This document shows, piece by piece, positions 28,774 to 58,844 of a DNA stretch of 64,000 nt; position 1 is the stretch's first letter, and every line of letters starts with the position of its first letter. The notes below the pieces were generated by a model, which did not search any database, was not told the origin of the DNA, and saw only the letters and a program-made list of their open reading frames with translations. The translations under genes and the position numbers were made by a program. Source of the DNA: Brachycybe producta (Eukaryota > Arthropoda > Diplopoda > Playtdesmida > Andrognathidae); contig JAUPFP010000007.1 of NCBI GenBank assembly GCA_036925085.1, positions 5,866,058-5,930,057 on the forward strand. Direction: 5' to 3'.

Positions 28774-29358
28774 GGACTGGCTCACTACAGCTAACTGGGT
28801 CACTACAGCTACTAGGCTCACTACAGCTACTAGGGTCACTACAGCTACCAAAAAGAAAATATAGACCATTATTTCATCAAAAGGGTCACTACAGCTACCG
28901 AGGGTCACTACAGCTACCGAGGGTCACTACAGCTACCAAAAAATTTAGGCCTGTTTATTTATCAATATGTTTAGTTTAGATTACATTCGGTTCAGTTAGG
29001 TTTCATTATGTTCAGTAAGGTTCGGTTAGGATCGGTTAAGTTTGGTTAGGATCGGTTAGGTTCAGTTAGTATAGGTACTTTTTGGTTAGGATCGTTAAGG
29101 TTCGGTTAGGTAAGGTTCAGTAAGGTTTTATTAGGTAAGGTTCCGTTATTTTAGGGAGAAAGGGTTATTTTTTTAGCTGTAGTGACGAAAAAGTGATAAA
29201 AAAAGGTCTATATTTTGTCCCCCTATTTTTTGGTAGCTGTAGTGACCCTTTTGATGAACAAAAGGTCTATTATTTTTTTTGGTAGCTGTAGTGACCCAAG
29301 TAGCTGTTCTCCCCTTAGTAGCGCTTGTGAGCCTTGGTAGCTGTAGTGACCCCCAACC
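28774..29358. mobile_element. Foldback-type element 1 with TTAGG-like core
   Basis: The element is flanked by direct repeats TCATTTATG (28765-28773 and 29359-29367). The left arm is an array of GGGTCACTACAGCTACC units, the right arm the same unit inverted (GGTAGCTGTAGTGACCC), and the middle (28987-29155) is a degenerate GGTTAGG/GGTTCGGTTAGG tract. The ends are GG...CC. This layout, with a 9-bp target duplication, matches what is known of Drosophila Foldback and Mutator-like elements. No coding capacity. Confidence 0.8.
28987..29155 (+). repeat. Degenerate TTAGG telomere-like tract in foldback element 1
   Basis: Irregular repeats of GGTTAGG, GGTTCGGTTAGG and GGTTCAGTAAGG. TTAGG is the ancestral arthropod telomere unit. 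It is confined to the core of the foldback element. Confidence 0.65.
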
Positions 29359-31885
29359 TCATTTATGACGGGTTACCCCACTAGTTTGTTATATTGTGTA
29401 TTGAAATCAAGTTGATTTTTAATTAAGTTTTTTTTAAATTACATTTTAAATAGTGTTTTAACTATATAGTTTCAATATAATAATAACAAGAGTGACATAA
29501 TTAAAAAAAAAGAAATTGTGAAAACAAGCAAAATAATAAAGAATAAAACGTATGTAAATTAAGATACATAAGGACTGGCCATAACTAATTTTAAATGACC
29601 TTTCACACGATTTAAAAAAAAACATTATTTACAAAAAAAATTAATTAAATACAACATTTAAATAACAGACTTTTCAAATTTAGTGATAAAACATTTTTCT
29701 CTCTTTTTTCGTAACAGATAACTTTAATGAAAACATAAATTTTATTAAGAACTTTGAGCAAGTTTGTTGGTAAATTTTTTTTAAAGAGTTTTAGTAATAA
29801 TTTTTTAATTAATAATTTTTTTTTGGTAATTTTACTTAGAAAAAAAAACTTCTGAAATATTTTAAAAGTATTTTTCTTTGCAAATATTTTCGTCTACAAC
29901 AATTGGTAAAATTCTGCACCGAATTGAATGACTTCATTAGTGAGGAAATATATCAAATGTCCGATTAACTTGCAAATGTTTCACATATCTTATTTTATGA
30001 CTACCAACAATTATTCAATTACAAATAGTTCATTAAATTAATTATTTACAGTAATAATAATTGATTATAAATATGTTCGGTTTCCATTATAATAATTGAT
30101 TTGTTAAAAAGTATGAAATTTGGACGGCTTTTTTGATCATTTTTTTTCCTTCTTGGTCATAATAAATAGGCCTGGCCCATAATGAAATACTAATTAGTAA
30201 TTACTAATTACATGTGTTTTCAAGTTTCTTTTATAAATCACTTTACAACAATAAACAACAATAATAATAATAATAATAATAATATAATAATAATACTCAA
30301 AAGTTGCAACTGTTATTCATCACTAGAGCAACCACAGGTTTATAAAATAAGACTGGTTAGAGACTACTTTTTCTAGTCATCAGCCACACTATCACCTCTC
30401 AAGTTGTCAATTGGAGAATTCTAGCCCCTAAACAGTCTATTTAAATTAATAAAAACGCGTAATTGTGGTCACTCTTAGTTATCACTTATTCTCCAGCCAG
30501 TTAGCACATTTCTAAACTACTTGGTTCATAAATCGTTTGCATCGGCTGTGACATTCATAAAATTATAAAGTTAACATCACAGTCAATGTAAAATTGAGTT
30601 TAAAAATGTGCTTTTTATTATCAATAGACCAACTAAAGAACATTACAGTTGCAACCAAAACATGCTAACAAAAGACTAGCGCGTCCAATGAATGGGAGTT
30701 GGAAAGTAACTCAGTAATAATGTCATTTCAACATAGTAAAAGTAATTTGCTGAATGCCACAGTCAAGGCTAGTGATAAACTAGTCAAATTGTTAAAATAA
30801 AACTTCATATCAAAGTTGATGAGTTGATTTAACAAACATTAAGAATGTGATCAGGAGTTTACTAGTACTTAGTTGTATAATTAATCATTGCTAAGTCAAA
30901 GGTAGTGCTAACCTCATGGATTTTAGATAGGAAGTTTCTATGCAAAAGTTGACGAGTTTTGCACTAGCTTTGACTTACCAATCATTAAGAATATGACCTT
31001 TAGTTACAAGTCAGGGCTTGTTCCAACTATGAATTTTAATGTAGGTTAAGATAAGGTCGTTCTCTACTGCATATCCTCAAATGCACCAATAGGAATAAAT
31101 TTATACATTAGTGACTACAGTCTGCACATCCACAGTAGAGAGCGAAATTAACATACATTAACTTCATCATGTGAACCCGGCCTTTTCGCTTTTGACATTG
31201 TATGACTTTGGTTGACAGTAGTTTTCAAACAACTTCTGCCTAACGTTGTTCAACAGACATTCTTCCTTTCAGCTCCAGGTTTTTGCAACTTTCTGATAAT
31301 TTAAACAACGCCACCACCACGAGTTGCAATTTATATCGATCATGGATTTCGATTAGGGAATCTCGCCTCCCAAACACAATTCGATACAAATATGGTTGGG
31401 GTTGTTCAAATTATTTATTGCATTCAGTTAATATTTCAAACAGTAAGTTAGTAACTTAAATGTTCTATGTTGATTTTACTCAATTACTTTTCAAACGAGA
31501 GAGTGAGGTAAAAAGATGAACTAAATTAAAATTTAAACCATTAGAAATAGAAAACGAATAAGAAATTTATGAACTTAAATTGTCGTTTTTATATTTTCAA
31601 CAAAACCTCATATTTCTTTTATTCAGTGACTTAAACCAGTCGTTTAATGAAATGTAACGTCACGTTCGATTAAAAGGCTGGATAAGTAAATGAACAAAGG
31701 GGGGGGGGGTTTGTTCTCAGTAAAATCTAAAAAAAAGCATTGTTTCCACTTATACTTACTAGTCTGTATACACGAGTCTGCAACATACGGTCTTGACAAA
31801 AATAACTTCATTTTTTGAGTCTGTAAATTAACGTTTTTCTTGTCGTTGTCACATCGCAGGCTGGTGTAAGGTTGCATCACCGTAA

Positions 31886-32060
31886 GCTGAAGCTTGTGAC
31901 GTCAGAGGGATTGTCTCATTTAGTCTTGACAGAAAACGTTGTTGACAGTTTAAACAGTGGGTTCTTGCATTCTTTTATTATTACGCTTTTTTTTTAATTA
32001 GACAAAATAACACAAGCGTAAATTTCTTGTCAACCTCTCTGACGTTACAAGCTTCATCTT
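31886..32060. repeat. Inverted repeat near the 3' end of the USF3-like gene
   Basis: GAAGCTTGTGACGTCAGAGG at the left is mirrored by CTCTCTGACGTTACAAGCTTC at the right. A related single arm is at 2455-2480. Probably a small MITE lying in or next to the 3' UTR. Confidence 0.5.
31974..31979 (-). terminator. Candidate poly(A) signal of the USF3-like gene
   Basis: TTTATT on the plus strand reads AATAAA on the minus strand, about 220 bp past the stop codon. Another is at 31618-31623. Confidence 0.35.
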
Positions 32061-32196
32061 AAGGTGAAACAATTAGACACAAACTCAAGAGTCCGAGTGG
32101 AAACGTACCTTTAAACGCACAAACATCCACACATACAAGTAATTTTAAAAATACTATTTACAATTTTAATTATTTGTTATATATAAGAAAGTGGAG

Positions 32197-35100
32197 TCAG
32201 TGGTCGTGCATAGAGAAATTCAAAGCCGGGATAACATTTCCAAACGACGTTGGATGTGAGTGTCCGTGAAACGGTGGCGTCATCGTGTTGTTTATACCGA
32301 TGGCCACTTGAGGTCGACTATCAAAACCATGTGGATTATGTCCGAGAAGAGAATTGATGGTCATTCCGTTATGTATGGGTGGAGGCGGAGGAGGAGGATG
32401 TGTTCTATTATGATACAATGGACCACCAGGCTGATGATGATGCTGCAAATTGTGTTCCATTCCTGAAGGAGGTTGATGATGTGAAGGTGGAAGGATGTGG
32501 TTCCCAGGATGATGAAATTTAATGGGTGACATACTAAGGCTATCATTTGAACCGCTGATGTCGGGAAAGATGTTGCTCAGATTAAAATTAGGGACATGAG
32601 GAGGAGGAGGTGGTGGTGGAGGTGGAGGAGGAGGAGCACCCGATGGACCATGAGGCGCTATCTGATTCGTAACAGCGCCTCCATTACCATGATGAAGATG
32701 GTTGACTCCAAAGCCAGGAGGCGTTTGAAAATTGAGGTTCAGTGTTCCACTTTGACTTCGTGGAGTAAAGAGAGGATTGTAAGGAGAGCCGGTAGTGACG
32801 TCGGACGCCTTCGACTGTTGGACGGCAACGTTAGGAGCAGCTCCTCTTTGAGGAGCATTGAACAGTGGATTCGTATTCGGGATGTAAGTCGGTGCTTCGT
32901 TACGAGGTGGCGACAGGTTAGAAATGGAGAAATACGGTGTCATGCTACGACCAGTTTCGAAGATTGAATTTGACAAGTTCACTTCCTCCATTCCGTACTG
33001 CAGCTGCTGCTGTTGTTGTTGCTGCTGTTGTTTCTTTCTAGATGTTTGCTGTTTTGACTTTGAAGATTTAGCCGTCGATCCTTCCTGACTTTTCTTTGAC
33101 TTATAATGAGTACTTTTGGCATGAACTTGGACATTCGGAGTGTTTCCGGAGCCTGTTGTAGAACCTCCAAGTTGCCCTTGATACGGTGCCGTGTCTCCGA
33201 ATGAAGGTCCATTCTCCATTCCTCCACAAGTGTGTGGACCGAACGAGTTCATTAGAACCTGCCCACGAACATTAGCCATATGATTTCCAGCAACAGGTGG
33301 TTGGTTGCTTCCGAACGGTGGCATAGAATGATGGTGAAACGCTTGTACGTCCTTTTGTGATGGACACTGCAGACCTGGCATTTGAGCCGTCATCTGTGCT
33401 GCATAACTTCCCATTGGTAGATAGTTATTGTGTCTCATTGAGTTCACATCATGAGGTCCACCCGAATGACCATCTACTCCTCCTCTTTGATGTTGTTGTG
33501 GAGTCAGCTGTGGTTCAGAAGGTGTATGTTGCATCAAACTGAACGTAAAGTTCGGTTGCGACTGAACAGTGATCAGAGATCCAGCTTCCGAAGAGGGTCG
33601 TGTCGAAGGCAGACATGACTTATTATTGGCCGACGCTTGTATCGTCGAATTGTGCTTCAATGGAGCACTGATAGACGTTGGTGGCATCGGCCTTCCCAAC
33701 TGAGGTCGCAGTTGATCGCTCGATGTCGGCTGCTGTAAAGTGAAATATGGAAAAGAGGAATTCTGAATGCTTTCGGATGCAGACATACGAGAAACATTCT
33801 GCAAGAAAGGTGGCTGTGGTCCACCGGGTGGACCCTGTAGTGGCTCGGTTCCAATTAAAATCTGCCGTCCCATCGGAGACACGGCGTGTCCTTCTCTCGC
33901 ACAGTTTGGTCTATGTCTCGGCTGCGTCTGAAAAAGACTTTCGGCCGAGTACGAGATAGTTGTTCGAGGTGGTGCAGTGACATTCATCGAAGTCAGTTGT
34001 TGACTAGAGTGTTTTGGAACGACCGAGAAGTTTAGATCTCGAAATGCATCTTGCGACGAAACCATTCCATCGGATGTTGCTGCTCCTGCGTAACCTCCAA
34101 TGATGTGTGCGTCCACAGTAGAGTGTGGCACAAATGTTGAAGGTGTCGATACTGGAGGAGTTGGGAGCGTGTTACGTCCCGGAGAAGCAACTGGATGATT
34201 CCGTGAAGGCATTCCAGGTTTTGGTGATGTACTGGAACTAGATGCAACTGAATGAGGTCCACTACCACTACCTCCTCCTCCTCCTCCTGATCCTCCTCCC
34301 ATCGGAGAGTGTCCGTGGACGTCTCCAATTTTAGGCGAATGAGCATTATTATTACTCGAGATATTTCCTTGAGCAGGTTGGTGATTCAATGTATGAAGCC
34401 GCGGTGAAGTAGTGTTGTAGCTTGGCGTATGCCGATGATGATTAATGCTCGGCATTTGAGAAGTGTCCGGAACCTGATGGATCGAGTGTGATCTTTGCAA
34501 CTGAATAGTTGGTGGTGACGTCACTATTCCATTGTTATGTTGTGCAGAATCGCTACTATCGACACTCGATCGACTGTTATTGGCCGTAGTTTTACTTTTG
34601 TTTCTACTGACATCACTTTGAGACTGAGTAACGTTGCCGTTACCACTACTTGGAACCGAAGGTCGAGTGTGTGTGTCCAACTGACCCGAGTGATGATGGG
34701 TCAATGGAGTTGAATAACCCTGACAGAAAGGAATAGGCACTTGGGTGTTTGAGGACTGCATTGTATGAAAGTTATGACCACTGGTCATTGGTCCCCTGTG
34801 TTGATGCTGACCCATCTGATGATGCTGTTGCTGCTGCTGTTGTTGCTGACCGTAAGTCATGGAATGCGTTTTCAGCTGACCTTTGTCCAGGTTCGAATGA
34901 GGTATTAACCCTTGACTGTCGGTCACGGCACCAAAGTTTTGACGTGTAGTTGGCGAATTCACCGATGAATAAGTTGTTCGAAAGTTTGGATGCTGAAGTC
35001 CATTTTGTCCTCCTACCCCTCCTCCACTTACTCCAATTTCCGATAAACCGAAATTTGGTGATCCATTGAGAGAGTTAGGAGTAAACGACGAACTGAAAGT

Positions 35101-37949
35101 AGCACCTCCTCCTCCGCAAGCTTCCATTCCCATACCGCTCGAAGCTTCGTCTGACCTCGAAAGATCGGAAATGGCAGCTCCAAGACTAAAAGCTAAGTCG
35201 TTACTTTTGTTATTTGGACTACTGAGCAACGGCGAGATGCTACAAAGTGGAGAACTGTCGTTTGAAATAGCCGTTTCGATCGAGAACGGAGTGATGCTTG
35301 TTGCTATCGTGTTTGCAAATGTAACGGAACAAGATGAAGCTGGTGGAACAGCCGAAGTAACGACAGAAGACGAACTACTAGCTAACTGTGAAACTGACAC
35401 AAAATTGACAACAGCCGAAGCGTTGGACATACTAGTCGGCGAAGACTCTGCAGTGGAGTTCAACTGTGCTACCGATGACGTGTCTCTGATTTTAGAATTA
35501 TCTTCTTTATCCAATAAAGAATCGACAACGACGGCAGACGCTTCTTCACGTTGCCTCTTTGCCACTGGTACTTCTTCGTAAGTGCATTCACGTTTAGAAT
35601 TCCTCGATACGTCGAAATGACTCGATGAGGGACCGTTAGAAACAGCAGCAGCAGCAGTAGAGGAAGGCGACGGACTAAGTTCCATTCCATTTACAGATGT
35701 CGGTGTCGATTCCGACAAATTGTTTCCTACTTTCAAAGATGATGTTAATTCCATGTTTGGAGACTTCAAATTGTCGATTCCAGATGACGTTACGACACCA
35801 GTCGAAGATGATATCGTAACATCCTCTACACCACCACCATCACCACCACAAGACGAAGTGACCATTCCGATAGCACAACTCGAATTATCAGTCGTCGAAT
35901 GTGTGTTTACGACAGATGATTCGCAGCTGGTCGTTGTCTGATAAACTTCTCCGACCAAATCGCTAAGAATATCAACGGTCTTTTTCTGATTATCGTCGCG
36001 TAATGTAATATTGCGATCATCTGAACCACTCTCCGTAACAGGAGGAAGCGGTGAAGAATTGTCTTTGCTCGAAGTCGCTTCCGTCTGTGGCGAAGTACTC
36101 TGTTCGAGAGTACGAGAAGACGATACCGTCGTCGTCGTTGTCGCCTCCGTTGCCGACTGAATATACTCAAGGCCGCTGCTATTTGAAGAATAGAAATTAG
36201 ACGACGTGGGTGAAACGTCTGTGGCCGAAGTCGCAAAAATCGACTCCGTGGCTTGAGCCAATATATCGTTGATTAATGAAGAAGGTCTTGAAACAACCAC
36301 CTGTGGTTTAGAAGCATTAACTGATTTCTGTGGCACTTCCGTCGTGTTTGTGTTCGTTACGGTCGTTGTTTGAACTGTGTTAATGGTTGGTGTAGTAGCT
36401 AAAGTACGAACTAACGGCACGACGAGTGGTGACGAAGACGACGTTTTCTTTTTGGTAGTTTTTTCTTTCGTAGAGACAGATTTATTGGCTGATTTCTTCG
36501 TCGACTGAACGGAAGAATTAGCCGATTGTGGTTTCGGTTTAATCGCTCTCGTTTTTTGTGAAGAAGCTTTCTTTGTGGCTTGCGTATTAGCCGGAGTTGA
36601 GCTTCTAGAGGGAATCGTTGATGATACTCCAGCCTCTTGCGGTTTTGCAGAACACGATACATCCGTAGTCGAAGAGGAAACCGGCAACGATCTCGGTGGA
36701 TTCGTTTGCTGAGCACTTGACGGTAAAGCGTTCGTAATTATATTTTGTGGCGTTCCTCTTCCTTCGGACACTTGATTGGTGGTCAATCTAGCACCACAGT
36801 TGTCCAATCCGATCGGGTTTTTTACTATCGAATTAGACGATACGCTCGTTTGTGTTTGTATTCGATTCGAAGCCGATATTATAGTTTGTGGAACGTTTGT
36901 CGTAGCCGCTGCCGTCATCAATAGATTTTCGCCTAAAGGATTTGCATTCGGATAAATAAGAGACGGTTCTCGAACAACGGGAATGATTTGACCGTTCGGT
37001 AACATCAAAGCGGAAGGCAACGAATTGTTATTCGACGTCGAAGAATTCATTGTTAATAAGGTATTATTCTGTTGCGACGATCCTAAAACGACGTTTCCAT
37101 TCTGTGTCGTAATCATGTGAGGAGTTATTAATCGCATCTGATTTGTTTGTTGCGTTCCGTGTGAAACGTAACGTGGATGATGACCGACAATCGTCTGTTG
37201 AAAGATTCCACCATCGTTTTGTATAAAACTTTGCGTTTGAGCCGTTTGACAATCGATTGTTGTTGGATCGCCGGTCGAAATTAAATTTCCGTTTACGATC
37301 ATTTGACCGTTATGAGGTTGTTGTTGAGCCGCAACCATTTGTAAAACTGGAATCCCCTGTTCGTTAATCGTTATCATTGGTGTTTGCATTACGTTCATCG
37401 TCGTTCCAAAGTTAAGAAGAGGTAATTGATTGACGACAGTCGGTTGTTGTTGTTGTAATGTCGTTGTTGTAGAATGGCTCGAAGTCGACATTATCGGAAC
37501 ACCGGGTAACGTCTGCGTTACGGCAGTTGCGCAGTTTGTCGATTGTGTCACCGATGATTCGTTCATCGTCGTCATCATCATTGGAACAGTCATCCAACCA
37601 GTCTGCGTAACGAACGATGTAGTTCCAACTTCCGCAGTTCCGTTCTGCGTTGTACGAACGGATGATGTTTTAGTTTTCTTTGCTTTTTTCTTCTTCGTTT
37701 CGACATCTTCCGTTATCTTTACGTTATCTTTCTGTGAACGTTTTTCGTCCGCAAGAAGAATAACGTCACCGTTTTCGCTCATTCCTATCAATTCCGGATC
37801 GAGTTTACCGATGAAATCTTTACGTTGTTTCCACATCGAAATCGGATCTGCGTTTGTAGCGATTCCAGCAAATCCGAGTAGTTTCTCGTAATTTGTATTC
37901 TGATGTTCAAGTTCTTCGATTCTTCGTTTCAAACGTCGGAATTCCACTT
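32197..37949 (-). CDS. USF3: USF3-like exon 5: coiled coil and giant low-complexity region
   Basis: Acceptor CTTTTCTTATAG at 37950-37951; AA completes a Glu codon, then 1916 codons run to TGA at 32197-32199. It opens with a coiled coil (RRLKRRIEELEHQNTNYEK) and NADPISMWK, recalling the corresponding vertebrate segment. Then come Ser/Thr-rich disorder, a basic Lys-rich patch (near 36440-36600), Gln runs at about residues 1158 and 1765, Gly and Ser runs, and a 12-residue proline run just before the C-terminal NFNLSNIFPDI motif. One uninterrupted exon of almost 6 kb with thousands of bases of sense frame and no stop is strong evidence of selection. The many shorter frames on either strand here are shadows. 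Confidence 0.9.
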
Positions 37950-38994
37950 CTATAAGAAAAGAAGGAAAGAAAAGAAAAAAAACAGAAACAAGAAAAACTT
38001 AAAAAATATTCGTTTAGCTGTTTCAAAATCCAGTTATTTTGTTCATAAAACTCATTTGTTTTCATTATTAAAGTACCTTGGACTTCGTCAACTTTTCCGA
38101 GAAGTAGTTTCTCGTGAGCTTCTTTAACTTCGTGAATGTATTCTACTGCTTTTTGCAACGCTTCCGTCTTACTCTTTTATTACAAAACAACGAAGAATCG
38201 ATAAGTTTTACTCCTATCAACTATTTTTACCCGCTTTTTTTTTTGACAATCTTACCCATCTTTTACCATCTTTATTCGGTAAAATTTTAGCCAAATTGGC
38301 GATGTAAGTGTTAATTTTGGTTTTTCTTTTATGTTCCACTGCATTATGAACCTTGTTGGATTCCTTGTTTTTACTAAAAACATAAAACAGAAATCTCAGC
38401 ATCTTTCTGTTTCACAATTGAGCATTTTTTTGTTTTACCAAGTTTCCTTTCCTCCTGTATTAGGAGGTAAGGCCATAATTGGAGAAACATCAAGTTTTTG
38501 ATTTGAAAACTTCGAGTTGGAAACCGATTTCAAACCTAATGTAAAGAAAAGAGTTCAATTAGTTATACGAAAGTTAACTGGCGCCTTTTATGCAAATATT
38601 TAAGTCCTTAAAAGTAACTTATTTGACCTCATAAAGGTCAAAAAAGGTGCCGAAATTTGATTGTTAAAAGGTCAAATTTTTCGGTCTTTAACGAATGGAA
38701 TTTAACATAAAAAAATGAGATTTTCAAAGAATTTATACAAATTGAAGGTCTTCTTAAGACTTTAACACAATTAATATCGTTTCTTTTGTATATTTTATGT
38801 TGCAATCATTGATTCAGATGTTAATTTTGTTTGTTTTTTTGTGTTGTGTTTGTCCATCCTGTTGCTCCATTCGTGTTTCGTCACTTTGATTCTCCCCTAT
38901 TTTCAATCCTTTGTCGGTATCACCACTTACTAGAATCAATGCAGTCCTTTTCAGTAACATTTTTAGCCTGTTTTGATATTGTTTTAACTGACAT
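32197..38994 (-). CDS. USF3: USF3-like (KIAA2018-like) basic helix-loop-helix transcription factor, five exons
   Basis: Join, minus strand: 38994-38931, 38535-38439, 38373-38256, 38173-38077, 37949-32197. All phases agree and the product is 2042 residues. Residues about 61-112 form a bHLH domain: basic region HNAVEHKRKTKIN with the E-box-contacting Glu, a helix LAKILPNKDG, and a second helix KTEALQKAVEYIHEV. A leucine-bearing coiled coil follows (EFRRLKRRIEELEHQ). The long remainder is low-complexity (Ser/Thr, Gln, Pro, His). As in vertebrate USF3, NAVE-type basic sequence, an SYSAESLF motif and C-terminal PNFNLSNIFPDISG / SMSPI segments occur in the same order, which is my reason for the assignment. 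Expected role: nuclear DNA-binding regulator. The start is the first Met after an in-frame stop (TGA at about 39001); a second Met at 38476 is possible. It is convergent with the Beat-like gene and divergent from the exon at 40357. Confidence 0.85.
38077..38173 (-). CDS. USF3: USF3-like exon 4: helix 2 of bHLH
   Basis: The 97 nt read SKTEALQKAVEYIHEVKEAH and on to EKLLLGKVDEVQ plus one base. The acceptor is AATAAAAG and the donor AAG|GTACTT. It encodes the second amphipathic helix and the beginning of the zipper-like extension. Confidence 0.85.
38256..38373 (-). CDS. USF3: USF3-like exon 3: basic region and helix 1
   Basis: The acceptor is ATGTTTTTAG and the donor TGG|GTAAGA. The 118 nt encode KNKESNKVHNAVEHKRK, TKINTYIANLAKIL and PNKDGKRW. 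The basic region H-x3-E-x3-K, with Lys at the last position, resembles vertebrate USF3 as I recall it; USF1/2 have Arg there. Confidence 0.85.
38439..38535 (-). CDS. USF3: USF3-like exon 2: N-terminal linker
   Basis: Acceptor TTTACATTAG, donor CTTG|GTAAAA. The 97 nt stay open in the frame required by exon 3 (KSVSNSKFSNQKLDVSPIMA and LPPNTGGKET). It contains a Met at 38476 that could be an alternative start giving MALPPNTGGKET. No domain. Confidence 0.7.
38931..38994 (-). CDS. USF3: USF3-like exon 1: probable start codon
   Basis: ATG at 38994-38992 opens MSVKTISKQAKN and runs 21 codons plus one base to the donor CTA|GTAAGT. An in-frame TGA lies two codons upstream, so this is the first usable Met in the frame. 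The 5' UTR probably begins near the AAGATGGCGGC motif at 39060, whose own ATG opens a short 16-codon upstream ORF. Confidence 0.6.
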
Positions 38995-39049
38995 AAGGCA
39001 AGAAATTCATCGCAAAATCTGATTTCCAACAATAAATTGAAACACAACG

Positions 39050-39060
39050 GCCGCCATCTT
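39050..39060 (-). promoter_or_regulatory. YY1-type AAGATGGCGGC motif at the probable USF3-like transcription start
   Basis: On the minus strand AAGATGGCGGCCG matches the extended YY1 site, which in animals often sits just downstream of TATA-less start sites and overlaps upstream ATGs. It lies 56 bp before the proposed start codon. Confidence 0.5.
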
Positions 39061-46290: not shown

Positions 46291-46309
46291 TTTGAAGAGG
46301 GGGGGCTCT

Positions 46310-46341
<32 letters not shown>

Positions 46342-47374: not shown

Positions 47375-47411
<37 letters not shown>

Positions 47412-48849
47412 CCTCACCTCCCTAACTCTCTACACACGAACTTTAAGATGCTTTTTTGTTGCAACTATTGATAAAATATTGATTTCATTTGATTGACAGA
47501 TGACGTTTTTTACTCGATATGTTTGTTATGTTTATCGGAAATTTTTTTGTATACCAATTCGACTAAATGCAGGAAAAGGAAAAAATGATGGTGAGGGGTG
47601 GAATGAAACTGACTTGAATGATAGAAAAGAGGGGGGGGGGGGGGGAATAAGGTTGTGGTGATTCCTATGAGTCAGAATTTTTCATTTGAATCTCCTCCTA
47701 GTGTTCTTTTGATGATTTTATAATTACAGCTTGGAATGACAAAGTAATTAAATGTTTATCTTGAGCCCAGCTGTTACAAATTTTACTATAGAAGTTAGTA
47801 GATAAAGTTAACTTTAAAAAAGTTAACAATAAATTATCTTAGTCAAATTTAGAGCGTTAATAACGTTGGTCCAATTGATGAAAATGCATTAGTTGCTGTT
47901 CAGTTTCGAAGCACTTTTGAAATTGCTCAAGCAAATTTGATGCGCTGAAGATCTTGAATGCCAAATCATAAAGTTGCTCAAATGGAATCGCTGGATGCGC
48001 TCGTCGAGGATTTGAACGCCAAATAAAAGACAGCACAATGCGCTCGTCAAACAACGTACATAGCAATTAACAACAACCTCTCACCAGTTTAAATATAAAA
48101 GGTTTTTTATTTTGACCAATAGATGGCATCAACTGAACTCCTAGCTGTGTGTTCAATTCATTTACGAGTGCTTATTGCAAGTGGCTTCAAACGAGCAATA
48201 AGTGCAAAAAAAAGAGGTGCTTAGGATCAGGAGACATGCTGCCAATTTCTTTTTACTGCAGTGTCCAAAAAATGAAAAAAAAAATGGATATTGTCATTGT
48301 CATTTTTGAAAACAATGAGAAAATTGAATTTAGACTTTTTAAATTAATTGTCAGGTGTTCAGCCCTCTTTTATTTTTTTTTTGTTGAAAGTTAACTCCCA
48401 AAATAGTTATCTAGAATTATAATTCGAGTGTTTTTTTATTCCACATAATTTATACCTTAATATATTCTCAAATGGCCAAATTTCCTTTGAGAGTGATAGT
48501 GAGGGTGGAGTTAAAATAGAGACTTCCCTTCTACTTTTTCACCTTTCAATATGTGACGAGTGTCGATCACAATCAACAACAATATTGCATTACTTTAATT
48601 GAAGATATATCGTTATATTCAATAATTATCTTTAATGAATTATAAACAAGAATATTCAAACAATGATTATATTCTATGAAGGAGTTGAATCGCAATTAAC
48701 TTGCAAATATTTTAATCACCCTTCTTAATACACTTGGTCTTGTCTAGCGACTGTGGCGGGGTACAATTAGTAGACAAGGTTCTGAAGACTCAAGACTGTT
48801 GCAAGACACAATTCTCATGTCTTTTGTATCCCACCCTAAACCCTGTGTG

Positions 48850-49384
48850 TGATTAACGCTGTACAAACAAGGACAAAAACCTTGAAGCACGTCGGAATTT
48901 ATATAAATTTAAATGAATAAATGAACCGCTTTTTTCTCAAGGTCAACTATATGTTGTACACTCCCCATCCAAGAACCCCATGATATTAAATTGGAGATGG
49001 GAAAAGGTTGGAAAGTGTAGAAGGAGGAGAGAAACGTGGAGGGAGAAAAAAGGGGAAGGGGTGACTGAAATTGAAATGAAAGGAGTAAAAAAGGGAACAA
49101 ACGACGCGCATGCGCACACCAGAGAAAATGAAAAACTCATTTTCTCTTTCAAATATAAAAAGGGGAGGGGATAATAGTAGCAAAATTAAACTACAGTTTA
49201 TAACAGGCAATGGTGAACAGCATTAGAATTTCTTTTGCTCAGCCCTTTTATGAACATAATCAATTTCTAATTGGTTTGTTACTTGGTCTGACGTCATAAA
49301 AGGGCGGAGGAAAAGAAATTCTAATGCTGGGCACGATTGCCTGTGAATTTTGCTCCCGTCATTTATGACGGGTTACCCCACTAG
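48850..49384 (+). mobile_element. Non-autonomous Helitron, copy B
   Basis: Same family as copy A. The body starts about 48864 (ACAAACAAGGACAAAAACC). The 3' end is the intact hairpin CCCGTCATTTATGACGGG followed by TTACCCCACTAG, with CTAG at 49381-49384 and T next, the canonical Helitron terminus. The internal dyad 49203-49345 is shared with the other copies. The 5' TC end was not fixed. Confidence 0.78.
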
Positions 49385-49407
49385 TATATATATATATATA
49401 TATATAT
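49385..49407. repeat. (TA)n microsatellite directly after the Helitron B terminus
   Basis: It begins at the base following CTAG. Copy A also has a short TATATATTAAGCC near its 5' side, so this may be part of the 5' region of the next Helitron copy. Confidence 0.7.
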
Positions 49408-49439
49408 TAAGCCCCATCTATCTTTCTTAGTCTCCTTGT

Positions 49440-50246
49440 TTCCTTCCCTCAGTAATGTTCTACAAACAAGGACAAAAACCTTGAAGCACGTCGGAAGTTA
49501 TATAAATTTAAATGAATAAATGAACCACTTTTTTCTCAAGGTCAACTATATGTTGCACTCTCCCAATCCAAGAACCCCATGATATTAAATTGGAGAGGGG
49601 AAAAGGTTGGAAAGGGTGGGGAAGAGAGAAACGTGGAGGGGGAAAAAGGGGGAGGGGAAACTGAAATTGAAATTAAAGGAGTAAAAAAAGGAACAAACGA
49701 TGCACATGTGCACACCAGAAAAAATGTAAAGCTCATTTTCTCTTTCAAATATAAAAAAGGGGAGGGGATAATATCAAAATTAAACTTAAATTTATCACGG
49801 GCAATTGTGCCCAGCATTAGAATTTCTTTTGCTCCGCCCTTTTATGAACGTCATCAATTTGTAATTGGTTTGTTAATTGGTTTGATGTCACATGCTTCGC
49901 GTTTTTCAATTTCTAATCTGTTTGTTACTTGGTCTGACGTCATAAAAAGGCGTAGGAAAAGAAATTCTAATGCTGGGCGCAATTGCCTGTGAATTTTGTT
50001 CCCGTCATGAGCCAGTTTTTTCTCATGGACAACTTTATGTTGCGCTCACCCGATCCAAGAACCCAAACAATATTAAGGTGCTTAGACAAAATGGAAGTGG
50101 TCAAGGCAAATTACTTCATGACAACCGGACATTCACACAAAATGTCATTTATAATGAAGTATTTGAATAAAATAGTTAAATAATTTTAGTAACAAAATTA
50201 GACTAGAATTGTATTCCCGTCATTTATGACGGGTTACCCCACTAGT
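49440..50246 (+). mobile_element. Helitron, copy C, carrying the end of a helicase gene
   Basis: In tandem with copy B. The shared body runs to about 50010, where the 3' hairpin is entered (CCCGTCAT at 50001-50008) but then switches to helicase coding sequence. A second CCCGTCAT at about 50214 leads into the complete terminal hairpin and CTAG at 50243-50246. The element thus has an additional 213-bp segment that A and B lack. Confidence 0.72.
50012..50170 (+). pseudogene. Helitron Rep/helicase, C-terminal fragment
   Basis: The frame FSHGQLYVALTRSKNPNNIK, then VL, and after a short linker NVIYNEVFE and TAA, is the C-terminal end of the Pif1-like helicase of Helitrons: the GQLYVALTR block is helicase motif VI and V-YNEVF is the usual ending. 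Only about 50 residues remain; the Rep endonuclease and the rest of the helicase are missing. The same motif VI region survives as a decayed fossil (SQGQLYV...SKNP) at about 48940, 49540 and 28340. The stop is immediately followed by a 3' UTR leading to the Helitron terminus. Confidence 0.8.
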
Positions 50247-51590
50247 GTTATAAAGTTGCACAACATTTCGTATCGTGATTCAGAGGCTGATAATGTCTAC
50301 TATGTCTAGATACAAAGTCTTGCAACTGTAATTTGGCAGTCGCTAGTCAGTCCCATACATTGACGGGCGACTTTGTATCCAAGTGTGAACTATGCTTTAC
50401 TGTATGGTGGAAAGAGGGGTACAACTGATTTCACAGTGAAAGGAATACTTTATAATAGTTCCATACGTTTTCATTGACATAATCAGGTTATATGATCTAA
50501 ATGTGCAAATGTCAATGAGTATGGGTTACACGAGCATACTTAATTGTACCAAAAGGCTATATTCCTTTAAAGGCTTGTGTGTGTGTGTGCAGCAGTGCAG
50601 CAAAATGAACTTGTTTCTTTACAAAATATACATGTATGTAAGGTACACGCATGAGCAGCAAGTGTTTCGTTATGCCTGTGAGGTCCTATGAACTGTTTCA
50701 TTGTATTCAAAATAGGTATCGAACCCTTAAAAAAATGGTGACATTAGTCAAAATTTGCATATTTTGAGTTATTTCTGCAAAAACATCAGAAAATAGTTGA
50801 ACTTTCATTAGGAAGTGTCATTAGGGTTTGTTAATAATAACTGTTATAACAAATGAAAATAATTGGTAATTTAATATATTATTTCTGAGACATGCATTAT
50901 TTTTAATTGTGTTTTCTGGAAAATGATGTTTTTGTTTACATGTGTCACTATTGTAACACCCTGTAGTAACAGAATGGTGGAACACACCGTAGAAATTCCT
51001 TTCTTTCAGTATGGCACCCCTTGGTGCACAGATGTCCAAACTTGGGTGGCCCGAATTCTAGTGAATTCGAGGAACCGTGAGAAATTGGAAAAAGAGTCCC
51101 AAAAATACCTTTCCTTATAAGGTATTGATCTCAGCCCGGGGCAATGATTGGCTCAATTGGTCAATCATTGAGCCCTGAGGTGACAGTCGCCCCTCCTTAA
51201 AGACCGGATGAAAGTGCCGTGACACTTATGTGTGAGGACAGTTAGTCAGAGATTTTTAGAGAGTTCAGTTGACTAAAGAAGAGATTTTTATATTATCACA
51301 AAAGATGTATATGCAACAATGTAAAGATAACCAGTAGAGAGTCTTTATCTGCCTCAAATAGTGGGAGTGTTGTGTATTGTGTTTTTGAGTCGATTGTTCC
51401 AAAAATAGTGGAACGCCCAACAGAGGCACTCGGATACTATCCGAGCCCCTCTGCTTGGAGCCTCCATAGGACTCGACAGAACAGTAATCGTGCCATCGTA
51501 GTCGTCTCGCACTGTACAGAAGATCCCTAAGAGAAAGTCTTTTTGTGGGCTTTAAAGAGCGGTTAAACCGAATGAACTGTAACCACAGAA

Positions 51591-51749
51591 ATGTCGCGAC
51601 CAGTGAAATCATTGCTGGCTGGTCCTCCAGAGCCGGCACCAGCACGTCAAAATGGTGGCGTCAAAGGGCCAGCCACGTCACACTATTCTTCTAAGGATGT
51701 TGTGTGTTTTAATTCAGCCTGCGATAATAAATCGTTATTTATTTCATGA
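51591..51749 (+). other. GC-richer 52-codon open frame, unidentified
   Basis: ATG reads MSRPVKSLLAGPPEPAPARQ, then NGGVKGPATSHYSSK, ending at TGA. The composition (Pro, Ala, Gly) and higher GC differ from the AT-rich DNA around it. It could be a first coding exon, or part of a solo LTR or other insertion that begins near 51120. No domain recognised. Confidence 0.2.
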
Positions 51750-51775
51750 TATAAAAAATATTTTCTGATTGATGA

Positions 51776-52022
51776 CAATCGATTCTTAAAACTGCAATAA
51801 ATGCCATAATGTTATGGCAAGGTCAAGACATAATTTAGATTTGTTAATTAACAACAACAAAGTTATGATTGATTTTTTTAGTTTTGGTTGATTTAAATGT
51901 TAATATCATTACAAAGTCTTTAAAATCAATAACAAGTTTAGTTTAGTTAGTTGAGAAATATAAATTGTGTATTGATCTTGTCATAACATTATAGTATTCA
52001 TTGTAGTTTTAAGAATCGATTG
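51776..52022. mobile_element. TIR element with about 50-bp ends (247 bp)
   Basis: CAATCGATTCTTAAAACTGC, then ATAATGTTATGGCAAGGTCA, at the left mirrors TATTGATCTTGTCATAACAT and GTTTTAAGAATCGATTG at the right. Confidence 0.65.
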
Positions 52023-52949
52023 CATGTTATGGATCAGAAGACATTTTACATATATATCGTGAAATGAATCAACATTTACTACTTTTGTGAAATGTTTATG
52101 CCCAACTTTTGAACATAAGTGGGAACAGTCACTCATAGATGCCTATGTAAACTATTACTGCTCGTGTACTTAACACCTCTGTTTCCAAGTCTAGCCTATT
52201 TTCTAGCCTCTTAAAAACTGATTGTACTGAAAAGGCACAGAAGGACACTTCTGAGTTTTACAAGAGTTGTTTTCTGCGGCTGATCTATTCATTAAGGAAC
52301 AAAAAAGGTGGTTTTGGTGTTAGTGATTTACACACCAAGCACTAATTTTTTTTTGCTAATGAAAACTATTTTCCATTTACAGTATGTTTACACAAACACT
52401 TTGCATCATATTTCCCTTTTCTCAACGATAGATATCTATTTATACAAAAAAATAACATTTTTTGTCAATGTAAACATTCAAGTTCGCTCGTTATGTGTGG
52501 TTTTACTTTTTTAGATCGGAAGTTCATACAAGTAGCAAACAAAAATCCCCACCATTTGTATCGACGATTTGGTAGGATCGACTCCTATGAATACTCAGTG
52601 CTGTTGCAAGCTATTACTAGGTATCATAAACGAATGTAACCAAAAGTGTCGATATTAGTATAGCCTCCTACGCAGTTTTCGCACCGCCCACTATTTTAAA
52701 TTGTTGCCTACATTATGTGTAGAGCCTCTGTAGGAGGACATACTATATATAGGGCTATACAGAATTTTAGTGGGATAAGTGCTCAGGTGGAACCCGGCTT
52801 AATTGGTTGAAGGGAGTTTTAGGTTAGGATGTTTACGAAAAGGAGATCTACACTATCGCTTGCAAAGCATGATCTGCTTTAAAGTTTGGTCATTTTCAAA
52901 CTCACATAAAAAGCTTATTTTGAAATATATCAACACGAAAATACTATTA

Positions 52950-53688
52950 AGAGGCTACATCGCAAAATTTCTTCGAAAAATCTCTACAAAGAGCACTAGC
53001 ATCGTTTTTCTATTGAGCCCTTAGACCCGATGTTAAAGAAGAAACGTTAGTTTTTAAAATACACAGTCGCAGCAGCAATATATTTATTTTTTATATTTAA
53101 AGTTGTCCAATTTTGATGGTACAAAGTGCAATGTGCACCTTAAATATATGCTTATCTATTGATAGAATGACAAAAAATTGGTGTTTTTTTATTTTTAAAA
53201 AGTATTTCAAAATCGCGAATGTTAAACTTCAATGAGTACACCCAAATAACAAAAAGACATCCATTAAAATGTTGGTAAAAAATATCTAAAAGTAAAATTT
53301 AAAAAAAAAACACAAGTAAACCACAGTGAAGGCAACACATTGGCGCACGTGCTGATTTTTATCTGGCTTTTTATTTGGTTGTACTCAATGGTGTTTAACA
53401 TAAGAGTTAGAAATTCGCGATTTTGAAATAGTTTTTAAAAATAGAACCGCACTTACCAACTTTTTGTCATTATATCACTAAATCAGCATAAATTTAAGGT
53501 GCACATTGCACTTTGAACCATCAAAATTGGACAACTTTAAATATGAAAAATAAACATATTGCTGCTGCGCCTGTGTATTTTAAAAATGAACGTTTCTTCT
53601 TTAACATCAGGTCTATGGACTCAATAGAAAAAAACGATGCTAGTGCTCTTTGTGGAGATTTTTCAAAGTAATTTTGCGATGTGGCCTC
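52950..53688. mobile_element. Palindromic element with about 195-bp arms
   Basis: The arms begin AGAGGCTACATCGCAAAA and end TTTTGCGATGTGGCCTC. They match along TACACAGTCGCAGCAGCAAT and TTTAAAGTTGTCCAATTTTG and end at GTGCACCTTA. The target duplication is TTA (52947-52949 and 53689-53691). A single arm of the family is at 26443-26636. Confidence 0.7.
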
Positions 53689-53691
53689 TTA

Positions 53692-54258
53692 TGCCTAGTT
53701 CTCACAATCTTCTTGTAGCTCGGGCTAAAATAGCCTTGGCTAAACGACTGTGTTCACATGTGAGCAGCACTGGCCATTATGTGTGGACATTGTGCGTGTG
53801 TATAGCCTGCATAATGTATACATAATTAAAGGTAAAAATGGCTGATATTGTACATACTAACAAAACTGAATTGCATGTGTCTTCTTCCAACACACTAAAT
53901 GCAACATATTTTAATTGTAGGTAGGTTGATGATTTAGAGTTTATGGAAATAAGTAATTATTAAATAAAGATCAATTGATAATTTTAAATTATTTTAATAA
54001 ATTAACAAATAGACCAAAACATCTAACAATGGAAATAGAAAATGAATGACGCCATTTTCTATTCAGATTTATGACCACCAGGTGGGGTAGGATCAAGTTA
54101 ACTTTTTCTTGCATTCACACTAAATAATGTGTAGGCTACATATATGTAACCAAGGCTACCTAACCAAAGCTAACATTTGACATTGACCACCATCTAGTGT
54201 GTGTTCTCACAACCCGTATACATAGCCTGAGCTACATGAAGGTTGTGAGAACTAGGCA
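53692..54258. mobile_element. TIR element TGCCTAGTTCTCACAA, inserted in the neighbour's target duplication
   Basis: The perfect 16-bp ends TGCCTAGTTCTCACAA and TTGTGAGAACTAGGCA extend imperfectly (CTTCTTGTAGCTCGGGCTA / TAGCCTGAGCTACATGAAG). It is flanked by TTA at 53689-53691 and 54259-54261. 567 bp, no transposase. Confidence 0.72.
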
Positions 54259-55309
54259 TTAGGTGTTTGAGTTGTTGTTAACCTTCTAGTTTCTAAAACA
54301 CATTCAAGTTTCTTTTCATTTTGCAACTGAAAAACAGAATAATGAAGACTTGGAGATGTTCCGTTCTGATATGAAATAAGCTGAGTTTAATGTGGAGTTG
54401 TGTTAGTTTGTTTTACTAGTACAAATTTCCTTTCTGAACTTATTTTAAGGTTAAAATTTTTCTAAAAAAAAACACATTTTAAATTTGTCTACCTTGTAGA
54501 AAAATAAGTCTTTATTGACTATAAATGGTATGATGGGAATCAGTACTGTCCTCCCCCCTCCTCCCTCTCCTCCACCCTAGAAAACTTGAATACAATCAAT
54601 GTCTTTTCTGGCGACTGAATGCAATTTTTTTTTATTCTCTCATTTTCACTCAATCAATAACAAAAAGAACATGAAAATGTATTGAATTTTTTTTTTTCAC
54701 ATAAAAGTTGACCTTTTTTTTTTGTATATTCAGAGCAAACGAACAAAATTTTTCCTTTTTTTTGTTAGAATATTTCACGCACTCTCCCCTCTCTCCTCCT
54801 TGCTTCCTCTTTATTTCTCTCAACTTGAAGTTAACCTCCTGTCGACAAAATCTATTATTTTATTTTTCAGCACCTTTTTTTTGTTATTTTTCTTGATTTT
54901 TCATTAAGTTGAAATTTATTCTTAGAAAAGAAGAAGAAGAAAATATTATTATTGTCATTTCTGAAAGATGTTTTGAGGTTTAAGACTGCATATTTTTTTT
55001 ATTTTCTAAGAAAAATGAAATTTATTTTTTCTTTGACTTTCTAAGAATTCCCCGGTTGAATTTTAATGGACTATATATATAAATTTTAATGATATTTATT
55101 TCGGTCTGGTATTTTGAAGGTTATGTTTTCCATATCTTAAGTGATGAAATAGTTATATGCCTATTTGAGTTAAGAGGAATGGGCGCACAATGGGCACATC
55201 AGCAAATAGTTGATGTGAAGATCTTTTGTTTTTTTCCGGCTTTACTAAAACCTCACTTTTTTAACGTTTAATGAACAGCTAATTAGGGACGCTGATTAAT
55301 TCTGTTATT

Positions 55310-55600
55310 CAGGAGAAAAATTAAATTGAAACTAGAAAGTGTTTTAGAAACTAGAAGAAACAGTTCAATCACTTACTGGCATTTTCATGCTGATATCTTT
55401 CAAAATAATGTTTTATAGATAAAAATTTTAAAATATCGTCTGCTTAAAATTGGGTCACTTTCAAACAAAACATAAAAAAGCTTATTTTGAAAGATATTAA
55501 TGAGATTATTCCTTAAATGATTAAACTACCCTTCTAGTTTCTAAATCACACTCAAGTTTCTCTTCATTTTGCACCTAAAAACGAAATAATTAAGGGTTTG
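55310..55600. repeat. AGAAACTAGAAGGG-family foldback repeat, copy
   Basis: GTTTTAGAAACTAGAAG, CAATCACTTA and TTTCAAAATAA are mirrored by TTATTTTGAAAGATAT, ATTAAACTACCCTTCTAG and TTTCTAAATCACACTCAAG. This is the best preserved copy in the window. Confidence 0.6.
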
Positions 55601-56457
55601 AGAGGCGTATACACTTTAAAAACGCCGTAAGTGACATCATCTATACAAAAATGGGTTAGAAAGCAACAAAAAGGCCCTTGAAATTGGAATATTTTTGGGG
55701 GTTTCTATATATATTGGCACTAGTGCCTTATTTTAAGAGCACACGCCCAAAATGCATTGGTCCAACACCAATTTTCATTGGCCCTGTGCACACTTTGATA
55801 CCGCAAAACGCCCATTTTATCTCTGTAGCTCCAATAACCATGTTGAAGCTATCTTTTATATGAAGTTTTTATGATATTGTTCAACTATTTAATTAAAGTA
55901 TTGTTCCAATTTAGTTTTGTCGTAATTTTATTTTGTCATCAATGGGAGGAAGAGCAAAAGGAGGAGGAGGAGGAGAAGAAGAAAAAAAGTCGCCCCAGTT
56001 TGACTTTTTATATTACAATTTTACAAATGGAATTTCGGAACAGTTTTGTTCCTCTTTAGGGAATAAAGCCTCGTTTTTTGTGGGGGGGGGGGGTTATTTG
56101 GCACTTTCATAAGAATAGATACACACACACACTCTCGGATGTCATTATGATAATTTGTCAGGTATTTTCTATCTCTAGAATACACAGAACTATATATAGG
56201 ATGGATAGAGAAAAAGTTAGCGTCATTTTGACGCCATTTATTAATTTGAGGATCTAGGAAACCTTTTTTTATCTTCTTTTAAATTGGTAACAAAACAAGT
56301 GAAGATTGTCGTTTATTGATGGCTAAATATAACCGGAAGTGTCAACATTGATGTTGATAATCGATATAATAATGTTTGATTTGTGGGGAAAGCTTTGACA
56401 GAGTTAATTTTTTATATTTATATTGATTCAACATTACAGTTGAGTTTTTTCCAGTTA

Positions 56458-56652
56458 GGCCTTGTTTCCATTGGGGCGAAAATTTGAACTGTCTGAAAAC
56501 TTCAACTGATGGAAAATAAAATAAACGTGGCTCCCGCCAATAAATAGTGAATAGGCGAGGGACACGTTTGTTCTGTTTTTCTGTTTTTTTTTTTTTTTCA
56601 TCAGTTGAAATTTTCAAAAAGTTTAAATTTTCACTCCAATGGAAACAAGGCC
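56458..56652. mobile_element. PIF/Harbinger-like MITE with GGCCTTGTTTCC ends, copy 2
   Basis: The ends GGCCTTGTTTCCATTGGGG and its inverse are flanked by TTA (56455-56457, 56653-56655). 195 bp. Confidence 0.72.
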
Positions 56653-56849
56653 TTAGGAACAATATATTGACTATGAAGATAATCTTGAGAACTCAGAATG
56701 TCAATGAATAATTTTACGAGGTTGTTTTTACAAAGAAAAAAATTCAATGTTTATTGGAAACAAGAAAATATATTAAGTTTATTAAAAAATATTTTTATGA
56801 GAATATTTTTTTTAAAAAAATAAACATGTTATATTGTGAATGTTTTTCA

Positions 56850-57038
56850 AAGTTCAAGTTTCCACCCCCAATTGAAACAAGGCCTATTGTTTCCATTGGG
56901 GGTGGAAATTTGAACTTTTTGAAAAAAATATCAACTGGTGAAAAATGGAACAAACGTGGCCCCCTCCGCCTATTCACTATCATAAGTTGATATTTTTTTC
57001 AAGAGGTTGGAAATTTTCACCCGAATGGAAACAAGGCC
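56850..57038. mobile_element. PIF/Harbinger-like MITE with GGCCTTGTTTCC ends, copy 3 (complex)
   Basis: The right end CAAGGCC is followed by TTA (57039-57041). The left end consists of two outward-facing termini (CAATTGAAACAAGGCC next to TATTGTTTCCATTGGGGG), so this copy is probably two fused or nested family members. Confidence 0.6.
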
Positions 57039-58287
57039 TTAGCATTATTTGTATAGTGTGTGGAAACGGGTTTCGTTTGTGATATTCTAAGATGAAAAGT
57101 TAGTTTTTAAGCAATTTTCAATATATGAAGATGATATTGTTGAAGACACTCAAATCAACAAAACACTCTTCTCTTTTGTTCTTATTTTAATAGAATTTAC
57201 TTGTGTAGTCTCGAAGTCATATTTTTATACTTAAAAATAATTACTATTGTAATTCTTCAAAAGATGTTGTTGTGGTTGTCTTAACAACATACATTTTAAT
57301 AATTGAAATTTCAATTTTTTTTAGTCTATAATTCAATTTATAGATAAATCTTTTTTTTTTTTCACTTATGACTTCAACAAAAATTTCTACACCTTTACTT
57401 GAGAAATTAGTCGCAAAACTGTTGAGTGATTACAAGTCTCTTGTGTTTCTGTCATGCAAATCACCTTAAGCATTTACTGATTGAGAAAGACTTGAGATTT
57501 CTCAACAACAACAACGACAACAACAAAAACAAGATAACTTTTGTCTCTTTACGCTCGTACTTTATCCATCTTCTCCTGATGTGACACAATCACTGCAAGC
57601 ATGATTGCATTTTCATTGGACGACACTTCGCTTGCAGGAAGAAGTTCGTTGTTTGCGCATTCGTTGCCGCCAAAGTGGAAAAACAAGCCAATTTGAAAAG
57701 TCATTAACCAGTTTATGTAATGACTCATTTAGCATTTTATTACAATTTTAAACAGTGTGTAAAATAAAAAAAAAATTGAAACCAATCTACAAAAATTTTA
57801 TAGTAAAGGTTTTGGCTTGTTGATATATAGGTCTTATTCGGAAACTAAAGAAAAACCCTAATATCTGGAAAAAGAAAACAGAAAAAATAGTTCCGGAAAC
57901 AACATGGTGTATGTACAGAAAACGTGTTCAAGAAGAAAGAAATCATCTTAATTCACATGTTTTCTGCAGACGATTGAATTCAATATGGCAAATGATGCAT
58001 ATAATGTGAATACGAAGACGACATATTTGCAAAATGCCCCCACCTCCCTGCTTCATGTGACGCATTCGATAACCTTATTGGTGAGGTAATCATTGGAAAA
58101 AAAAGGTTGCACATCCGGGAAAGCCTTTTTTTTTACAGAATATTCTAGGGAGTGTGGAGCAATCACCTTTCTGAATTAAGTACAGCACAAAGAAATTCTC
58201 TTTAGTTTCCAATTACCACTATAGAGAAATGTCTTCATTTACTACATAATTGATAGATTTGCATAATGATTAATGATTTCACAAAAT

Positions 58288-58844
58288 GGGGCGACTGAAT
58301 AAGCGCCAAATTGAACAAACGCCAAACTGAATAAGCGCCAAATGGAACAAACGCCAAACTGAATAACCGCCAAATTTTTGGCTTTTATTCAGATTGGCGT
58401 TTCTTCCATTTGGCGCTTATTCAGTTTGGCGTTTGTTCCATTTGGCGTTTATTCAGTTTGGCGGTTATTCAGGTTTTTTTTGTTAATTCTGATGGTCCAA
58501 ATATTGTGAGCTTTTATAGACGTCAGACTGTGCAGATTTACAAACAGAACATGCTAACCTAACCTAACCTAACCTAACCAATCCTAACTTAACCTAACCT
58601 AACCAAACCAAACCTAACCAATCCTAACCTAACCTAACCAAACCTAACCTAACCTAACCTAACAATGTGTTTATCACATTTTGGCGGTTATTCAGTTTGG
58701 CGCTTGTTCAGTTTGGCGTTTGTTCCATTTGGCGCTTATTCAGTTTGGCGTTTTCCATTTGGCTTTTATTCAGTTTGGCGTTAGTTCAGATTGGCGTTAG
58801 TTCAGATTGGCGTTTGTTCAATTTGGCGCTTGATCAGCGCCACC
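58288..58844. mobile_element. Foldback-type element 2 with AACCT core
   Basis: The direct repeats CACAAAAT (58280-58287, 58845-58852) flank an element with ends GGGGCGACTG and, inverted, GGTGGCGCTG. The arms are arrays of about 19 bp alternating GAATAAGCGCCAAA/GAACAAACGCCAAA units at the left, inverted (TTTGGCGCTTATTC, TTTGGCGTTTGTTC) at the right; the left part also turns back on itself near 58375. The core 58555-58663 is an AACCT array. Same plan and size as 28774-29358 but unrelated unit sequence. Confidence 0.8.
58555..58663 (-). repeat. AACCT (TTAGG on the other strand) array in foldback element 2
   Basis: About 20 near-tandem AACCT/AACCA units, with long stretches of exact AACCTAACCT. 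It is the telomere unit of most arthropods, but here interstitial and inside a transposon-like structure. Confidence 0.8.

Follow-up and report, generated by a model that had tools for sequence, protein, structure and literature searches.

What places a telomere-like repeat inside two mobile elements with unrelated arms is the question raised by a 64-kb stretch of DNA (the window) from a eukaryotic genome of 295 Mb in 442 contigs. The original prediction for this locus described two foldback elements with TTAGG-type cores, and that observation is confirmed. We call the elements A (positions 28773-29358) and B (58288-58844); all five runs of at least three CC[TAG][AT][AT] units in the window lie within one or the other. 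A third family, C, was found elsewhere in the genome. We think it probable (roughly 0.75) that A and B are non-coding foldback families moved in trans, most likely by a Mutator-like (MULE) transposase, and that their telomere-type core is ancestral, inherited cargo.

A and B are each a complete copy belonging to a large transposon family. With at most one mismatch allowed, the genome contains 730 B right ends, 709 B left ends and 532 A left ends, and reversed-pattern controls gave 0. Genome matches numbered 183 for B (40 of 1601 first-look candidates scored) and 227 for A (40 of 695 scored). Most copies of A, B and C start with GG and end with ACC, the left and right ends of an element differ, and the insertion targets are AT-rich. 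Exact 8-bp target duplications flanked 26 of 36 A pairings, 29 of 41 B pairings and 10 of 21 C pairings, and a further 2, 4 and 7 pairings, respectively, agreed at seven of eight positions. When flanks of different copies were deliberately mispaired, agreement at seven or more positions was found in 11 of 1260 (A), 4 of 1640 (B) and 0 of 420 (C) controls. The 36 A pairings came from the window and 29 other loci, with chimeric pairings in clustered loci (e.g., L031_0, L095_1, and L095_2) kept, and one seemingly single insertion present on two contigs (L047 and L049) was counted twice. Loci without an end pair were dropped, five of 39 for B (L057, L066, L067, L076, and L077) and one of 22 for C (L131). 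Thus, the GG...CC ends and target duplications predicted from the window recur across copies of A and B, far above the controls.

Comparison of many copies also corrected the boundaries of A. The prediction had started A at 28774 and given it a 9-bp duplication, but the G taken for the ninth duplicated base already belongs to the element, as its first base. Element A is therefore a complete 586-bp copy on the forward strand that starts at 28773 and reads GGGACTGG...CCCCCAACC, between 8-bp duplications of TCATTTAT at 28765-28772 and 29359-29366, the length being set by the 36 pairings. The 8-bp duplication claimed for B stood. The left arm of A (28779-28937) comprises two blocks of GGGTCACTACAGCTACC-type units separated by a spacer, and in the right arm (29168-29352) the units are inverted (GGTAGCTGTAGTGACCC). 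These 17- to 19-bp arm units flank a degenerate TTAGG-type core (28976-29150) with a 10-bp period of GGTTAGGATC/GGTTAGGTTC; both arms and the core are given on the forward strand. A 17-mer, TAACCCTTTCTCCCTAA, marks the border of core and arm on the reverse strand (29151-29167; genome match C7:5895208-5895224). The repeat into which A inserted has another copy at 49267-49411 on the forward strand, which lacks A, has one TCATTTAT and so is a paralogous empty site. Joined flanks of A also matched further copies of this host repeat, again without A and with a single TCATTTAT, at L037, at L021/L090 (one site fetched twice) and at L024. These empty sites are direct evidence of insertion. We note that two A left ends face each other 3.3 kb apart (C1:17311303 and 17314562). 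We also note that the A copies at L079 and L089 have as their duplication GCTTGTGA, a word within A itself, which suggests from sequence that A has inserted into A at a single internal site.

How the cores came to resemble telomeres depends first on the telomere itself. Contig C1 has N at bases 4951-5000 and a perfect CCTAA array from base 5001, with 90 of 90 units intact in 450 bases. Genomewide, a pattern of four telomere units matched 7450 times forward and 672 times in reverse, compared with 1 and 5 for the control. TTAGG is very probably the telomere unit of this genome. The cores are built differently. When units were counted between CC dinucleotides, CCTAA made up about 40% of A units (18 of 36 cores cut out), alongside CCGAA, CCGAT, CCTTA, and CCAAA. 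The figure was 71% in B (29 of 41 cores), with CCAAA, CCAAT, and less than 1% CCGAA, and 46% in C (15 of 21 cores; median core length, 48 bp), with CCGAA, CCAAA, and CCTAT. CCAAA is present in all three families, A and C both have CCGAA, and none of the variants occurs among the 90 sampled telomere units. Moreover, most of the ten C cores compared read CCTAA..CCTAT CCTAA CCAAA CCGAA CCGAA CCTAA. Because copies of one family have the same variant units and the sampled telomere lacks them, the cores are inherited and evolve within the elements rather than being freshly captured.

The prediction had offered as one possibility that telomeric DNA was captured while excision gaps were repaired. In a broader form, TTAGG arrays would be captured afresh, or added by telomerase, at excision breaks, and hairpin elements would simply be prone to break. 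We consider this very unlikely, even though the array and the probable telomere have the same unit and the module in the window copy of B sits between two exact TTTGGCGGTTATTCAG units, as if pasted once. Copies within a family have both variants and their order in common, and A and C also have the core border in common, so that capture, if any, was ancestral. A different objection is that the pentamer array is a nontelomeric simple repeat that matches TTAGG by accident. The variants do fit a wider CCNAA/CCNAT pattern, and CCTAA accounts for less than half of A units. CCTAA is nonetheless the commonest unit in each family, pure CCTAA runs occur in B, and with about 100 distinct pentamer classes by our own count, an accidental match to the telomere is improbable. 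Thus, we regard a nontelomeric origin as unlikely and retain the reading that the array is inherited cargo, presumably of telomeric origin.

Family C is informative chiefly through its relation to A. C has 8-bp duplications and ends in GGCGGTATCC and GGTGTGTTCC. Its inverted arms contain complementary stretches of 93 and 72 nt at 98 to 99% (two loci tested) and by eye have no obvious tandem units. Because its array led to its discovery, C cannot count as separate evidence that cores of this kind are widespread. When C was compared with the reverse strand of A, a match ran from AAAAATATAACCCTTTCTCCCTAA into the array with a score of 46, and the maximum of 200 shuffles was 19. With the arrays masked, A and C still matched at 17.5 on one strand (shuffle maximum, 17.0) and at 16.5 on the other (maximum, 13.5), scores reached by 0 of 200 shuffles in each case, and the best masked matches are an inner-arm stretch (AGCTACCAAAAAAAT...). 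The match outside the array thus seems real but modest. Over their outer 90 bp, the three families matched one another no better than shuffled sequence. The border 17-mer TAACCCTTTCTCCCTAA, the first 12 bases of which lie outside the pentamer array, is common to A and C and was counted 339 times genomewide (control, 0); among 42 listed matches on C1 and C2, 16 are near a perfect A end, 4 belong to C copies already identified and 22 have no assignment. Because core and border match and the outer 90 bp do not, a single core with its border appears to sit in two sets of outer arms, and the core of A and C is probably common by descent. The predicted scenario in which arms are replaced and the core is kept fits this pair, which is a concrete case of transposons with a common interior and different ends. 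The B array may or may not come from the same ancestor as the array of A and C, as the common CCAAA is by itself weak evidence.

Element B differs in its details. The complete 557-bp copy in the window (GGGGCGACTG...CAGCGCCACC, forward strand like each part below) lies between duplications of CACAAAAT at 58280-58287 and 58845-58852. A left array of 16-bp units in CGCCAAA orientation (58294-58376) pairs with an inverted array in TTTGGCG orientation (58377-58472), and 58294-58374 and 58377-58457 are 93% complementary over 81 bp with 2 bases between them. The core module opens with a unique stretch (58473-58553), continues as a telomere-type (CCTAA)n array that includes the variants CCAAA and CCAAT (58554-58663) and ends with a small hairpin, AATGTGTTTATCACATT (58664-58680). 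A right array in TTTGGCG orientation follows (58680-58837). Inverted short-repeat arms and a TTAGG-type core are present in B, but a plain order of arm, core and arm is too simple for it: the left half is itself a hairpin and the module lies within the right-hand array, flanked in the window copy by exact TTTGGCGGTTATTCAG arm units. Of eight copies tried, seven gave module borders; in six of these seven the unit to the left ended in exact TTTGGCGGTTATTCAG, and six of the seven had that unit again after the module. The unique stretch of about 80 bp is 99.4% identical among 24 of 39 copies, a figure biased upwards by choosing copies through exact words. From its sequence, B is best seen as a hairpin element with a module pasted into its array.

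Some B copies have no core. One of 144 bp has a perfect 8-bp duplication, and another of 176 bp has none. Three more occur at L138, where no run of three units is present, and one of these has GTTCAATA on either side by eye. Because B copies without a core show the duplication, the core is dispensable in cis for B insertion, and because it is absent from some inserted copies it looks like cargo. The array might instead serve the element, for instance by binding a telomere or zinc finger protein, aiding replication or countering silencing, and selection would then maintain it in unrelated families. The array is indeed present in three families with different outer arms and in 39 of 41 sampled B copies (the sampling favors core-bearing copies), and 49 of 63 B end pairs exceed 330 bp and so are long enough, by length alone, to hold it. 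Such a function is nevertheless improbable. The core-less copy with a perfect duplication indicates that the array is unneeded in cis for insertion, the core of A is heavily degenerate, and A and C probably have the core by descent and so are not independent cases.

Interstitial telomeric repeats are usually taken as scars of chromosome fusion or of repair by telomerase. We surveyed them with a pattern of four telomere units preceded by a nontelomeric base, which gave 206 matches genomewide (control, 1); about the first 100 were listed, and contigs C1 to C5 were covered whole. The pattern favors young, pure arrays in one phase and misses the degenerate core of A, and so the survey is a sample rather than a census. 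Matches on C1 to C5 formed 31 loci, of which 26 belong to B, 2 to C (L109 and L114) and 3 to neither. For 24 of the 31, a perfect B end is no more than 1 kb away, and L111 and L113 are also B by sequence; of the 26 B loci, 6 were read, 2 were fetched (L048 and L099) and 18 were assigned by position alone, from a perfect B end within 1 kb. The three others are L104 and L105, which have a non-inverted repeat in common, and L107, a lone short array. We note that the L104/L105 repeat contains a short CCTAA array followed by AACACCTTATACATGGACTCTATG and is present twice in tandem in L104. B thus holds most interstitial TTAGG arrays in the surveyed part. The prediction had named as fatal a finding that most such arrays lack inverted arms, and instead 28 of 31 loci fall to B or C. 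Fusion or telomerase-repair sequence unbounded by transposon ends was rejected on the same 28 loci as the general source; three loci are not so bounded. In the surveyed part, interstitial TTAGG is mostly transposon cargo with inherited variant units, and arrays in other genomes can be checked for surrounding inverted arms and 8-bp duplications. More tentatively, and with the balance of our judgment against it, the telomere-unit module may be an inherited inner part that foldback families have kept, or exchanged, while their termini and outer arms were replaced. One such module would explain A and C and possibly B, and its lineage would be the chief origin of the genome's interstitial TTAGG. 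If so, maps of "interstitial telomeres" would follow the history of transposons, not of chromosome fusions.

How A and B move must be judged by likeness. We consider them probably foldback-type transposons related to Mutator, because duplication length, ends and arm style agree with MULE membership. MULE target duplications are given as 8 to 11 bp in the available part of one account (PMC6446971), and those of A, B and C are 8 bp; in A and B, moreover, the long inverted arms contain short tandem repeats in subterminal position, as in Muta families. The genome contains 21 matches to MULE domains. The Merlin-type domain PF12762 had 0 matches in six frames of the genome, although introns or divergence might mask a gene, and Merlin was rejected as the superfamily on this result. 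Assignment to a different superfamily that includes foldback-like elements, such as the P superfamily with Galileo, is quite unlikely. Galileo makes 7-bp duplications and P elements have CA ends, unlike the 8-bp duplications and GG...ACC ends here. In favor of this rival, Galileo arms are long, internally repeated and foldback-like, according to the portion of the report available (PMC3573991).

We therefore return to a MULE-type mobilization in trans. A and B would be moved by a transposase whose gene lies elsewhere and which most likely belongs to the MULE superfamily, and insertion into AT-rich sites would create the 8-bp duplication. The arms, as arrays of short units, would probably be transposase-binding regions, by analogy with Mutator elements and Galileo, the arms of which hold such sites (PMC3310237 and PMC3688188, each as available in part). 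The pentamer array would have been acquired in an ancestor, once for A and C and perhaps for B, and inherited with its own variants and changes in copy number. The core would be passive cargo for insertion and, by hitchhiking in B, would have become most of the surveyed interstitial TTAGG.

Several results weigh against this account. Agreement fell below seven of eight duplicated positions in 8 of 36 A, 8 of 41 B and 4 of 21 C pairings. The sample of the telomere unit came from one contig. Copies were the best-scoring matches to core-bearing queries, and core-less copies are under-sampled. With the arrays masked, the A-C match barely exceeds shuffles on one strand, and the scores of B against A and C are within the range of shuffles (171, 95, 21, and 29 of 200 reach the score). 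No gene ties the families to MULEs, and the part examined yielded no transposase gene bounded by A, B or C ends. Perfect-match B ends on C1 to C5 form 63 adjacent left/right pairs spanning 128 to 2229 bp, and the search for an autonomous B among them yielded short elements or clusters of separate copies, spans of 1465 and 1542 bp excepted.

Individual candidates for an autonomous partner were rejected. The longest B span (2229 bp) is three separate core-less B copies. A 3-kb candidate, L101, is one complete B and one B without a recognizable left end amid other sequence. Two MULE loci were read of the 21 domain matches, L102 (with L135 and L136) on C5 and L103 on C89, and neither matches A, B, or C; the former forms a giant palindrome bordered on the outside by a minisatellite, and the latter has ACAGGCAATTGTGCCC-like borders.

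Both MULE loci have features of their own. The C5 locus (C5:5399350-5409350) contains two divergent MULE genes with open frames of 1003 and 1088 amino acids (aa) and a weak C-terminal PHD finger match below the Pfam cutoff. The pair lies in a palindrome of more than 4 kb per arm, with nearly identical arms that grade into minisatellite. Opposite paired MULE matches also occur at C2:4233697-4236531 and C38:896639-898720. The C5 pair resembles the Rehavkus group, in which a PHD finger and a minisatellite are combined according to the available part of the account (PMC6446971), though an effect of assembly is possible. The C89 MULE has a 750-aa frame with a weak C2H2 zinc finger match below the cutoff, and its borders are similar to those of short hairpin repeats with CACAGGCAATTGTGCCCAGCA-like borders, found in the window at 28605-28752, 49202-49344, and 49793-49990. 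This MULE may, from its sequence, be the autonomous source of the hairpin repeats. Repeats of this type were also the insertion targets of A and possibly of a single copy of C (L121). Elsewhere in the window, a fragment of a non-LTR reverse transcriptase frame was seen by eye at 63412-63990, and one exon resembles a Beat-type protein; this exon and the telomere unit together suggest an arthropod.

Finally, A and B may be set beside known foldback systems. Drosophila FB elements have foldback arms built of short repeats, a likeness that A and B have to FB and to the Rehavkus group. The comparison with FB made in the prediction held for the foldback plan and, probably, for the Mutator relationship, and failed for the 9-bp duplications, as those here are 8 bp. 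Rehavkus duplications are also 9 bp (PMC6446971, available in part), and those of A, B, and C are not. Nor are unrelated arms on one plan as surprising as the prediction held, as 10 of 12 long-TIR (terminal inverted repeat) Mutator-like families in Aedes have short subterminal tandem repeats in the accessible text of that survey (PMC5225508). The Muta1/Muta/Phantom elements of Aedes aegypti, of which Muta1 is termed a type 2 foldback (PMC5225508), have 8- to 9-bp duplications, subterminal tandem repeats and many noncoding derivatives (PMC5225508 and PMC6446971). They are like A and B in duplication length, in long arms of short subterminal tandem repeats with a terminal motif and in hundreds of internally heterogeneous noncoding derivatives; they differ in that a transposase is known for Muta only and that the accessible text describes no telomere-type core (PMC5225508). 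Tetris of Drosophila virilis is likewise a nonautonomous foldback element with 8- to 10-bp duplications, tandem-repeat arms, a variable middle domain and no autonomous partner found, but its arm repeats are about 220 bp and seed satellite DNA, and a TTAGG core is not mentioned in the portion available (PMC4079207). Tm1 Mutator/Foldback elements of root-knot nematodes have composite arms of 13- to 15-bp tandem units, asymmetric left and right terminal motifs and both coding and noncoding members; they differ in mostly 9-bp duplications and in groups that bear a histone hairpin motif, are MITE-like or carry a transposase (PMC3169594, in part). In literature searches on telomere repeats and transposons, titles and the openings of abstracts named no TTAGG-core foldback element, most subscription journals lying outside that scope. 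By analogy, a nonautonomous foldback plan with family-specific arms appears ordinary among Mutator-like elements. What sets these families apart is the telomere-unit core, its inheritance, its occurrence in two families that differ at their ends and the finding that a large share of the surveyed interstitial TTAGG lies in B.

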